The notes under the pieces were generated by a model that was not told the origin of the DNA, did no database searches, and saw nothing but the letters and a program-made list of their open reading frames with translations. DNA of 64,000 bases from Halorubrum distributum JCM 10118 (GTDB taxonomy: Archaea; Halobacteriota; Halobacteria; Halobacteriales; Haloferacaceae). The position numbers and the translations under genes are program-made. Shown piece after piece: positions 29,138 through 32,542 of this stretch (position 1 is the first letter of the stretch; every line of letters starts with the position of its first letter). The stretch is taken from contig NZ_AOJN01000018.1 of the NCBI RefSeq assembly GCF_000337335.1, positions 155,936 through 219,935 of the forward strand, in the 5' to 3' direction.

Positions 29138-29145
29138 CCGACTAA

Positions 29146-29165
29146 GGCGAGCGCAGCGGCTCGCC
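29146..29165 (+). terminator. Hairpin after the DoxX-like gene
   Basis: GGCGAGC and GCTCGCC form a 7-bp stem with a 6-nt loop 9 bp after the stop codon. On the opposite strand, T-rich tracts at 29172-29188 would serve the convergent solute-binding protein gene, matching the T-run termination of archaea. Confidence 0.5.
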
Positions 29166-29200
29166 CGCCGCGAAAAAACGGGAAAAGGTCGGCGAGTTCC

Positions 29201-30583
29201 CTACTCGTTCAGCACGCTCGACCACTGGCTGGTGTACGTCGCCTGGTTCGGCTCGAAGGAGACGCGCTGGTCGATCGTCCCGTCGCGCTCCTCGAAGGCG
29301 TTCACGTACGCCTCCTCCAGCGACTGCCCGTAGGCGTCGTTGAGGTACAGCGTGCCGGAGCTCTCGGCGCCGACGTTGTCGCCCACGGCGAGGTCCGCCA
29401 TCGCGGGTCCCTGAAGCAGGTCGGAGGGGGCGGTCCGGAAGATGTAGCCGTTGTCCTCGAGGTCCGTGACGTTCGGGTCGGTCGAGGACGGCGAGATGCC
29501 GACGACGCCGTTGGGGATGAACACCTGTTCGGAAACCTGGAGGTTGACGTTCGACGACGCCGGGCCGACGACCGCGCCGTAGCCGGCGTTGACGATGGCG
29601 TTCGCCCCCGAGATGCCGGCCTGCGGGTCGGTCTGTGTGTCCTCGACTCTGGTCTCGACGTCGACGTTGATGCCGGCGTCGTTGACCTGCGTGGCCGCGA
29701 GCAGCGCGCCGTCGCGGATCGGCACGCCGAGCGGGCCGAGGTCGCCCGTCTCCGGCATCAGAACGCCGATCCGAGCGGTGAACGAGTCGACGCCGACCGG
29801 AGCCGCGGCGGTCGCGTTCAGGTCCTCCTCCGAGAGCTCGTTCCCGAACTCGACGGTGTCGAGGGTGACGAGCTCGCCGTCTTGGAAGTCGATGACGTCG
29901 TAGGCCGCGGTGGCCATGTCGCCGTTGACGTCGAAGTTGACGCTCGAGGACGCGCCCACGTAGTGGACCGGGTCGCCCCCGGCGACCGTCTCGACGGCCT
30001 CGGGGAGGTCCGCGGGACCGAACTCCTCGCCGCCGGGGTTGGCGACCGTCCGGACGCGGTCGCGAATCGCCTCGCCGTCGTTCTCGCCCGCCGCGGTCGC
30101 CGCGAGTATTTCGACCGCCATCGCGTCGTACGCCTGCGCGGTGAACACGCCCGGCTCCTCGCCGTACTCCTCCTGATACGACTCGGTGAAGAACTCCGCG
30201 CCGGGACCGCCCGCGGAGGGCGCGGTGCCGATGACGTTGTTCATGTCGTTGTCCACCTCTGCGGGGAGGTCGCCGTCGATCAGGCCGTCGGGGACGATGA
30301 TGTCCAGGTCCGGCGCGCTGTCGGCGAACTCCGAGTAGAAGTCGCGGAACAGCTGGATACCGGACTGCGGGAAGCCGACGACCATCACGGCGTCGGGGAC
30401 GTTGTTGGCGTCGCCGCCGTCGCTCCCGTCGCCGCCGTCGCCGCCGTCGGAGCCGTCGCCGCCGTCGGAGCCGTCGGAGCCGTCGCTCCCGTCGCCGCTC
30501 TCCGTCGAACAGCCGGCGAGCCCCGCGATGCCGACCGCGCCGGCGCCTCTGAGCACGTCTCGTCGCTGGATTCTTCGCGTCAT
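29201..30583 (-). CDS. Tat lipoprotein solute-binding protein with circularly permuted lobes
   Basis: A 460-residue type I periplasmic-binding protein (Leu/Ile/Val-binding family). Signal and lipobox: twin arginine RRDVLRGAGAVGIAGLAGC, with Cys25 as the lipidation site. Residues 26-60 are a Gly/Asp/Ser linker. Residues 61-247 resemble the C-terminal lobe of the family (DAVMVVGFPQSGIQLFRDFYSE, GVFTAQAYDAMAVE, HYVGASSSVNFD). Residues 248-270 form a junction. Residues 270-460 resemble the N-terminal lobe (TARIGVLMPETGDLGPLG, VVGPASSNVN, YIFRTAPSD, NDAYGQSLEEAY) and stop after SSVLNE. In ordinary family members the order is the reverse, so this looks like an intact in-frame circular permutation. 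No ABC permease or ATPase is adjacent. Start at ATG 30583, about 30 bp from a TATA-like TTATAA near 30613. Confidence 0.85.
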   Translation of the reverse strand: MTRRIQRRDVLRGAGAVGIAGLAGCSTESGDGSDGSDGSDGGDGSDGGDGGDGSDGGDANNVPDAVMVVGFPQSGIQLFRDFYSEFADSAPDLDIIVPDGLIDGDLPAEVDNDMNNVIGTAPSAGGPGAEFFTESYQEEYGEEPGVFTAQAYDAMAVEILAATAAGENDGEAIRDRVRTVANPGGEEFGPADLPEAVETVAGGDPVHYVGASSSVNFDVNGDMATAAYDVIDFQDGELVTLDTVEFGNELSEEDLNATAAAPVGVDSFTARIGVLMPETGDLGPLGVPIRDGALLAATQVNDAGINVDVETRVEDTQTDPQAGISGANAIVNAGYGAVVGPASSNVNLQVSEQVFIPNGVVGISPSSTDPNVTDLEDNGYIFRTAPSDLLQGPAMADLAVGDNVGAESSGTLYLNDAYGQSLEEAYVNAFEERDGTIDQRVSFEPNQATYTSQWSSVLNE

Positions 30584-30792
30584 CCTGTGAGAGTATACCA
30601 TACGAGCCGTTATAAGTGTATCCACGACCACAAATACGACGCCGGTCGAATTCGAACCCATCAGGCGCGTTCTATTCCGCACAGGCACGCTCTACCGACC
30701 GTTCGTCGATCGGCGGTCGAGCGCGAAAGCGGCGTCGTTCCCGCTCGCTGATAGGATATTTGGCCGGCGCCACGAACGCGGTCGTCCCCGGC

Positions 30793-32451
30793 TCAGTACC
30801 CCTGTGCGTTCCCGTCCTTCCGGGGCTCCGTGGCGGCCGACAGCACTCCGTCTTCGTTCCGGGCGATCTGTGCGCCGCCGAACATCACCGGCGAGAGCGT
30901 CCGCACGTCGTGGTCCTTCCGGACCAGCTTCGCCGCGGCGTCGTCGTCGAAGTGCGGTTCGAGTCCCAGTTCGCCGCTCTCGCGGTAGCGCCACCGCGGC
31001 TCGTCGAGCGCGCGCTGGAGCGGCATGTCGTAGTCGACGATGTTCGAGATCACCTGGACGTGGCCCTGCGGCTGCATGTAGCCGCCCATCACGCCGAAGG
31101 CGGCCCAGTCGTCCTCGTCGAATCGGACGACGCCCGGGATGAGCGTGTGGAACGGGCGCTTGCCGGGTTCGAGCGCGTTCGGGTGGTCCGGGTCGAGCGA
31201 GAACGACGCGCCGCGGTTCTGTAAGGCGATGCCGGTGTCGCCGGCGACCAGTCCGGAGCCGAAGCCGGCGAACCGAGAGTTGATGTACGAGACGACGTTG
31301 CCCGCCTCGTCGGCGACGGTGAGGAGGACGGTGTCGGCGTCCTCGGCGTTCGCGTTCGGCACGCCGAAGGAGACGTCGTGCGAGGCGGTCGCGCCGACGC
31401 CGGCGGCGCGCTCGCTGGCCCATTCGCTCGACGCCAGCGGCGGAATCTCCTCGTACTCGGGGTCGGTGATGTAGCGGTGGCCGTCGTGGAACGCCCGCTT
31501 CATGGCCTCCGCGAAGTAGTGGACCCGCTCCGGCGAGTCGTAGTCGTACTCGCCCGCGCCGAGCTCGCTCGCGACGTTGAGCGCCTCCAAGGCGATCAGC
31601 CCCTGGTTGTTCGGCGGCAGCTCGTACACCTCGGCGCCGTTGTAGGTCGTCGACACCGGGTCGGGCCACTCGACCTCGAAGTCGGCGAGGTCGTCGACGG
31701 TCATGAACCCGCCCTGCGACTGGACCTCGTCGGCGATCGCCTCGGCGATCTCGCCCTCGTAGACGACGTCGGCGCCCTCCTCGGCGATCGTCCGCATGGA
31801 CTCGCCGAGCCGCGGGAGCGTCACCGTCTGCCCGACGTCCGGCGGCTCGCCGTCGAACAGGAACGCCTCGCGGGCGTGGTCGTCGGTGAACAGCGCGTCG
31901 GCGCTCGCCCAGTAGGAGGCGATGACCTCCGACACCGGGTACCCCTCGGTCGCGTAGCGGATGGCCGGCGCGAGCGCGTCCGCGAGGCTGAGCCGCCCTA
32001 GCTCCTCGACGGTCGCCTCCCAGCCCCGCGCCGTCCCGGGGACCGTGACCGCGTGCGGGCCGTAAAACGGCATCCCGGCCTCGCCCGCGTCGTCGACCGC
32101 GTAGCCGCCGTCGTCCGGGTAGTAGGCGCCCGCGTCGTCGTCCTCCGCGAGCGCCGCCCTGACGTTCTCGATCGTCGCGTCCGCGGGGGCGCCGCCGCAC
32201 GAGCGCATCGCGCCGACCTCGCCGTCGGCGGTCCGGTACAGCGCGAACACGTCGCCGCCGAGCCCGGTCGAGGTGGGCTCGACGACGTTGAGCGCGGCCG
32301 CGGTCGCGACCGCCGCGTCGAACGCGTTGCCGCCCTCGCGTAACACTTCGATGCCCGCCTCGCTGGCGAGCGGCTGACTGGTCGCCACCACGCCGCGCTG
32401 GCCGTACACGGTCGACCGGCGCGACGTGAATCGGTCCAGGTCTGGCTCCAT
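30793..32451 (-). CDS. ggt: Gamma-glutamyltransferase
   Basis: A 552-residue Ntn hydrolase cleaving gamma-glutamyl bonds. Family landmarks: GVVATSQPLASEAGIEVLREGGNAFDAAVA at the N-terminus; TGLGGDVFALYR; and NAEDADTVLLTVADEAGNVVS, in which a threonine is the expected autoprocessing nucleophile. SRFAGFGSGLV, PGKRPFHTLIPG and MGGYMQPQGHVQ follow. No signal peptide, so cytoplasmic. ATG at 32451, with a minus-strand TATA-like CTTTATTC near 32470-32478. In haloarchaea, which use gamma-glutamylcysteine, it could act on that thiol, but broader peptide processing is equally possible. Confidence 0.92.
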   Translation of the reverse strand: MEPDLDRFTSRRSTVYGQRGVVATSQPLASEAGIEVLREGGNAFDAAVATAAALNVVEPTSTGLGGDVFALYRTADGEVGAMRSCGGAPADATIENVRAALAEDDDAGAYYPDDGGYAVDDAGEAGMPFYGPHAVTVPGTARGWEATVEELGRLSLADALAPAIRYATEGYPVSEVIASYWASADALFTDDHAREAFLFDGEPPDVGQTVTLPRLGESMRTIAEEGADVVYEGEIAEAIADEVQSQGGFMTVDDLADFEVEWPDPVSTTYNGAEVYELPPNNQGLIALEALNVASELGAGEYDYDSPERVHYFAEAMKRAFHDGHRYITDPEYEEIPPLASSEWASERAAGVGATASHDVSFGVPNANAEDADTVLLTVADEAGNVVSYINSRFAGFGSGLVAGDTGIALQNRGASFSLDPDHPNALEPGKRPFHTLIPGVVRFDEDDWAAFGVMGGYMQPQGHVQVISNIVDYDMPLQRALDEPRWRYRESGELGLEPHFDDDAAAKLVRKDHDVRTLSPVMFGGAQIARNEDGVLSAATEPRKDGNAQGY

Positions 32452-32542
32452 ACGCACCCCTCCGGCGCGGGGGAGAATAAAGGCCCGACCGGAACTGTCC
32501 GGTGTCGGTCGCGTGCGGTCGACGGTGCGGCGATCGACGCCG

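Follow-up and report, generated by a model that had tools for sequence, protein, structure and literature searches.

Solute-binding proteins (SBPs) of the LivJ/LivK type serve as anchored clamps that supply amino acids to LivHMGF-type importers, and natural circular permutations of proteins are usually viewed as one-off events of great age that have no close relatives in the original order. Among the closest described systems is the Treponema pallidum protein Tp0684 (MglB-2), a naturally permuted type I SBP designated 'Type Ic / cluster Bc', for which the authors propose tethering as the reason for the permutation (PMC4990184). The protein considered here is encoded in a 64,000-nucleotide stretch of DNA from Halorubrum distributum JCM 10118, called the window below. 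Like Tp0684 it is a permuted type I (cluster B) SBP with a probable lipid anchor and a putative ABC importer partner, but it is a LivJ/LivK-type protein of Halobacteria, whereas Tp0684 is a bacterial sugar-binding relative of MglB. In Tp0684 the cut lies in the N lobe, whose first three strands now stand at the end of the chain, and this moved part has poor sequence similarity; in the window protein the cut lies in the C lobe, and similarity is clear over both halves. Furthermore, canonical sisters at 60-67% identity and recurrence of the permutation are found on the haloarchaeal side only. The window protein thus has the permuted topology of a type I SBP, with neither the N-lobe cut nor the MglB-type sequence of Tp0684.

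Canonical LivJ/LivK proteins (3td9 TM1135, 4n0q, 4gnr; PF13458) share with the window protein the family of both halves and the predicted fold, and differ from it in that its halves are reversed, a new linker joins the old ends, and the tether is expected on the C lobe. The nearest relatives are a canonical SBP of Halorarius litoreus (L027) and its kin, which stand at the same locus beside the same operon and reach 67% identity over the N half and 60% over the C half; L027 has the ordinary order, with the junction SEVLNDNPGVVAVIGF unbroken. Repeated rearrangement and permutation by duplication have precedent in DNA methyltransferases and transhydrogenases (PMC3320104), families in which intermediates or several arrangements are documented, whereas in the haloarchaeal SBP a single cut is seen repeatedly among orthologues that occupy one locus. 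Consistent with the initial impression that no permuted type I binding protein had been described from haloarchaea, our literature search, with subscription papers outside its scope, returned none from that group and Tp0684 as the sole described natural SBP permutation. The novelty lies in an archaeal family that spans the class and is cut elsewhere in the protein, in canonical orthologues at the same locus, and in recurrence.

We consider it probable that the window protein is a functional, lipid-anchored, permuted LivJ/LivK-type SBP, and that the gene was permuted in place at least two times at the same C-lobe turn. Permuted and canonical orthologues with identity up to 67%, a common transporter and identical cut points occupy one locus, and this coexistence of both orders makes the cost, benefit and route of the permutation directly testable. 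The finding also bears on the proposal, made for Tp0684, that the position of the tether influences how SBPs evolve, and standard annotation conceals the topological change in this widespread transporter component.

The features of the locus are as follows.

29201..30583, minus strand: permuted solute-binding lipoprotein gene (460 aa, stop codon included).
30509..30583, minus strand: Tat-type signal peptide with RR motif and lipobox LAGC, residues 1-25 (from sequence; kept in relatives).
30398..30508, minus strand: Asp/Gly/Ser-rich spacer, residues 26-62, predicted to tether the new N-terminus (from sequence).
29843..30397, minus strand: original C-terminal half, now first, residues 63-247 (residues 63-180 match Peripla_BP_6 profile positions 191-311).
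29777..29842, minus strand: new linker, residues 248-269 (22 aa), the NELSEEDLNATAAAPVGVDSF region, from old C-terminus to old N-terminus (linker comparison).
29204..29776, minus strand: original N-terminal half, now last, residues 270-460 (Peripla_BP_6 profile positions 2-186).
30610..30615, minus strand: TATA-box-like TTATAA, 27-32 nt upstream of the ATG (conserved in most relatives).
30793..32457, minus strand: gamma-glutamyltransferase gene, the immediate upstream neighbour (conserved in Halorubrum).
29140..29200, no strand: 3' side of the gene, with an inversion breakpoint at about 29148 (alignment with a relative).

The gene is a single minus-strand open reading frame of 460 aa that runs without interruption from the ATG at 30583 to the stop codon at 29203-29201, and its signal, MTRRIQRRDVLRGAGAVGIAGLAGC, contains both a twin-arginine motif and a lipobox cysteine, through which the protein is probably lipid-anchored. 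The uninterrupted frame and the Tat lipobox with its Gly/Asp linker were read correctly in the first-pass annotation, and the promoter it named is supported by the conserved TTATAA, whose spacing to the ATG is consistent with a transcript that is likely to be leaderless. Two canonical proteins (L030 and L031) and one permuted protein (L161) have a signal region without the lipobox cysteine (LAGYTG, LAGFTG and LAGQVG, respectively), and these are probably secreted or otherwise anchored.

That the order of the halves is reversed was apparent from profile and structure-database searches alike. The whole protein matches PF13458 (Peripla_BP_6) with an E value of 1.1e-30, residues 270-457 aligning to profile positions 2-186. 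Searched separately, the N half gave an E value of 5.1e-24 and the C half 2.5e-7 over profile positions 191-311, the latter scoring just under the gathering threshold. Profile positions 191-311 therefore stand before positions 2-186 in the 460-aa protein, and the canonical N-to-C order is absent. Likewise, a phmmer search of the PDB aligned chain residues 17-198 of 3td9 (Thermotoga LivK) with query residues 270-455, and chain residues 265-328 with query residues 123-186. Given where both halves fall in PF13458 and in 3td9, the order is reversed relative to the solved relatives, and we regard the open reading frame as confirmed to encode a Tat-type lipoprotein with a circularly permuted Peripla_BP_6 domain. 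The swapped order of the separately matched halves agrees with the first-pass annotation, and neither PF13458 nor the PDB search gave the full-length alignment in canonical order that it had named as evidence to the contrary. Its label of 'C-lobe-like' for the first half needs a small correction: since the cut falls inside the C lobe, this half comprises the later portion of that lobe together with the returning N-lobe segment.

We modelled the window protein with AlphaFold2 from an input of 54 relatives, among them canonical ones entered as separate halves. Of the two outcomes that had been set against each other beforehand, one closed type I fold and two unrelated domains, the prediction gave the former, a single closed fold with a pLDDT of 91.3 and a pTM of 0.88, whose secondary-structure elements follow the order of the canonical L027 model, rotated. 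On the L027 model the cut lies between the helix at 183-189 and the strand at 196-200, the third C-lobe strand. The best PDB matches of the permuted model are of the LivK/LivJ type, with the two-lobed type I fold. Foldseek aligns in sequence order, and against 3td9 it recovered 189 columns for the permuted model (TMq 0.42, rmsd 2.3) but 384 columns for the canonical one of L027 (TMq 0.82); a match of half length for the one and full length for the other is what is predicted if one fold has been permuted. In Rossmann-like lobes the helix-to-strand turns normally lie at the pole opposite the ligand cleft. Since the cut is such a turn, the model would place the tether, formerly on the N lobe, at the far pole of the C lobe.

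Where the chain was opened could be compared across a large set of sequences. A conserved Tyr lies exactly 11 residues before the Pro of a PD motif in 43 canonical proteins; 81 permuted proteins end 9-13 residues past that Tyr, and in them the PD motif is the start of the permuted domain. The cut of all permuted clades falls at one point, give or take about 2 residues. Inside the window's clade the linker between the old ends is conserved (the NELSEEDLNATAAAPVGVDSF region); other permuted clades have different linkers, GGSGDVPQPEPAGSGSGADR for f3 and EGANPEGAGPSADSGPGGSDR for the big clade, with a vague P-G-(D)R pattern in common.

A careful SBP tree of 90 rows was built with the permuted proteins put into canonical order. 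Four order changes were needed on it (bootstrap 5-95% range 4-4). The window clade takes in Halorubrum, Natronomonas, Halohasta and relatives; its sister is L027, the canonical protein of Halorarius (100/99), and it is nested in further canonical proteins (100/99). Separate N-half and C-half trees both put the window clade beside canonical L027; an origin by chimera formation or gene conversion was considered and is contradicted by this agreement. In AU tests, uniting all permuted forms as one clade was rejected (p 0.0004), as were unions of the window clade with the big clade (p 0.019) and with f3/L095 (p 0.001); the big clade and f3/L095 together were not rejected (p 0.42). The four neighbouring ABC proteins, in a tree built without any SBP sequence, gave the same picture, with p values under a simple model and quick search of 2e-46 for all permuted forms together, 6e-26 for window plus big, 1e-51 for window plus f3 and 0.11 for big plus f3.

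By both sets of trees the permuted forms are not one clade, and at least two independent permutations are needed, perhaps three, or else permutation plus reversions. Two of the order changes are firm and a third, which the topology supports, is likely; only two are firm because the big and f3/L095 clades are not separated by either test. The canonical outgroups imply that canonical order is ancestral, and the changes thus appear to be gains rather than reversions.

The alternative that best survives is one permutation event at the root of Halobacteria, after which permuted genes repeatedly went back to canonical order through re-permutation by the same route or gave way to canonical genes. It would account for the cut point common to all permuted forms, it is compatible with keeping the big and f3/L095 clades together, and the vague likeness of the linkers at their P-G-(D)R end could be a trace of common origin. 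We nevertheless consider it unlikely: as the trees were read it calls for one gain and at least six reversions, to which three gains are the simpler alternative, the outgroups are canonical, two of them at the same convergent locus, and a foreign canonical SBP taking over the place would have disturbed the agreement between SBP and ABC trees, which is close. On the reading of repeated gain, the boldest form, that the same SBP gene, at one locus next to the same ABC operon, was permuted independently three times in Halobacteria at one identical turn, is a serious possibility to which we give slightly less than even weight. If it is true, it would point to a recurrent mutational route and to selection for a membrane tether carried by the C lobe instead of the N lobe.

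The most likely route is permutation by duplication, for which the tandem SBP copies at the locus (L088, L144) and the presence of the junction motif at both new ends argue. In such a scheme, described for other families (PMC3320104), and supposed for this gene in the first-pass annotation, the gene would have been duplicated in tandem in its place convergent with the operon and the outer halves then lost, so that in each of at least two, perhaps three, events the same C-lobe turn was opened and the old ends were joined by a different new linker. A search of the 1.5-kb flanks for remnants of the lost halves gave only the tandem full copies (L088, L144) and weak matches, two of them in unrelated genes on the opposite strand, which we judge to be due to chance; no N-C-N or C-N-C intermediates were found among the examined loci. 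The tandem pairs themselves (L088 8799-11630 and L144 7380-10192) each consist of two permuted SBP genes beside an ABC operon, the downstream copy having a signal-like start without the lipobox cysteine.

Whichever order its halves have, the SBP gene is convergent with the ABC genes (SBP><F<G<M<H) in most loci. Canonical SBP genes, for example L027, L030, L034 and L107, fill the identical slot, and the canonical outgroups L165 and L173 share the convergent arrangement. The best models for the ABC genes of L104 are LivF, LivG, LivM and LivH, all below strict cut-offs. In the genome of the window the ABC operon is not adjacent, and the LivH orthologue lies about 120 kb off on the same contig. 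Sequence collinear around the SBP gene in a relative stops at window position 29148 and restarts in the opposite orientation at the operon, which indicates that an inversion has split the two. The other end of this inversion, roughly 125 kb in size, lies at about 59636 of contig C18 of the same genome (L189). It is likely to be common to a subgroup, since L001, L056 and L067 have the same downstream neighbours. The same genome also carries a canonical SBP paralogue of 31-35% identity (C49:204025-206121) with its own LivH-type permease adjoining.

By analogy with the family, the ligand would be amino-acid-like and the permuted SBP would pair with a LivFGMH importer; residues are conserved between permuted and canonical forms, and the neighbours are of LivFGMH type. 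The LivJ/LivK-type protein (Peripla_BP_6, type I / cluster B) would be exported by Tat and anchored by its lipobox cysteine, the Asp/Gly-rich tether now holding it by the C lobe; its two halves would fold into an ordinary two-lobed clamp that binds an amino-acid-like solute and hands it to the LivHMGF-type ABC importer, encoded adjacent in most relatives. The gamma-glutamyltransferase gene upstream in Halorubrum fits amino-acid scavenging. The distance of about 120 kb between the window's gene and its livFGMH-type operon, and some genomes with no ABC genes in the examined flanks, could instead suggest a lipoprotein for sensing or scavenging that has no part in transport and is kept for ligand binding alone. 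This strikes us as quite improbable, given that the SBP faces livFGMH in most loci of either order, that SBP and ABC trees concur, and that the separation in the window is an inversion in which both parts were kept.

Both halves of the protein are under purifying selection, with dN/dS values of 0.07-0.42 against clade members. A locus scan of one genome per species, in named genomes, found 26 haloarchaeal loci permuted in one frame and 14 canonical (L027-L040), and of 392 Halobacteria genomes about 169 have the halves in permuted order, a count made by hand from one-piece alignments at E <= 2.2e-99 (45 of the 47 listed in the window's genus, 51 in its family and 73 in its order). The first-pass annotation had proposed looking for the same order in other haloarchaea, where it is indeed found, but had missed both the class-wide spread and the recurrence. 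Among the matches listed from 295 genomes of the phylum no permuted form was seen outside the class, all being two-piece canonical or single-half, and the best matches listed among bacterial plasmid homologs were also two-piece, with no permuted form. Chance is excluded by the identical full-length order in dozens of independent genomes. An assembly or sequencing artefact, such as a collapsed or rearranged repeat in the low-complexity DNA of the Asp/Gly-rich tract, is ruled out for practical purposes by the recurrence of the order in relatives' genomes (the 26 named-genome loci and the approximately 169 genomes, several of them single-contig assemblies and some complete) and by the purifying selection.

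One permuted gene, L182 (G065 C2:2081075-2082157), shows 85% identity over a match that ends at residue 357, possibly owing to a frameshift, a pseudogene or an assembly error. Within the window's genus, each species has one of two permuted SBPs, that of the window type (E <1e-180) or that of the big clade (~1e-104 to 1e-128), which suggests transfer or differential loss of two permuted lineages.
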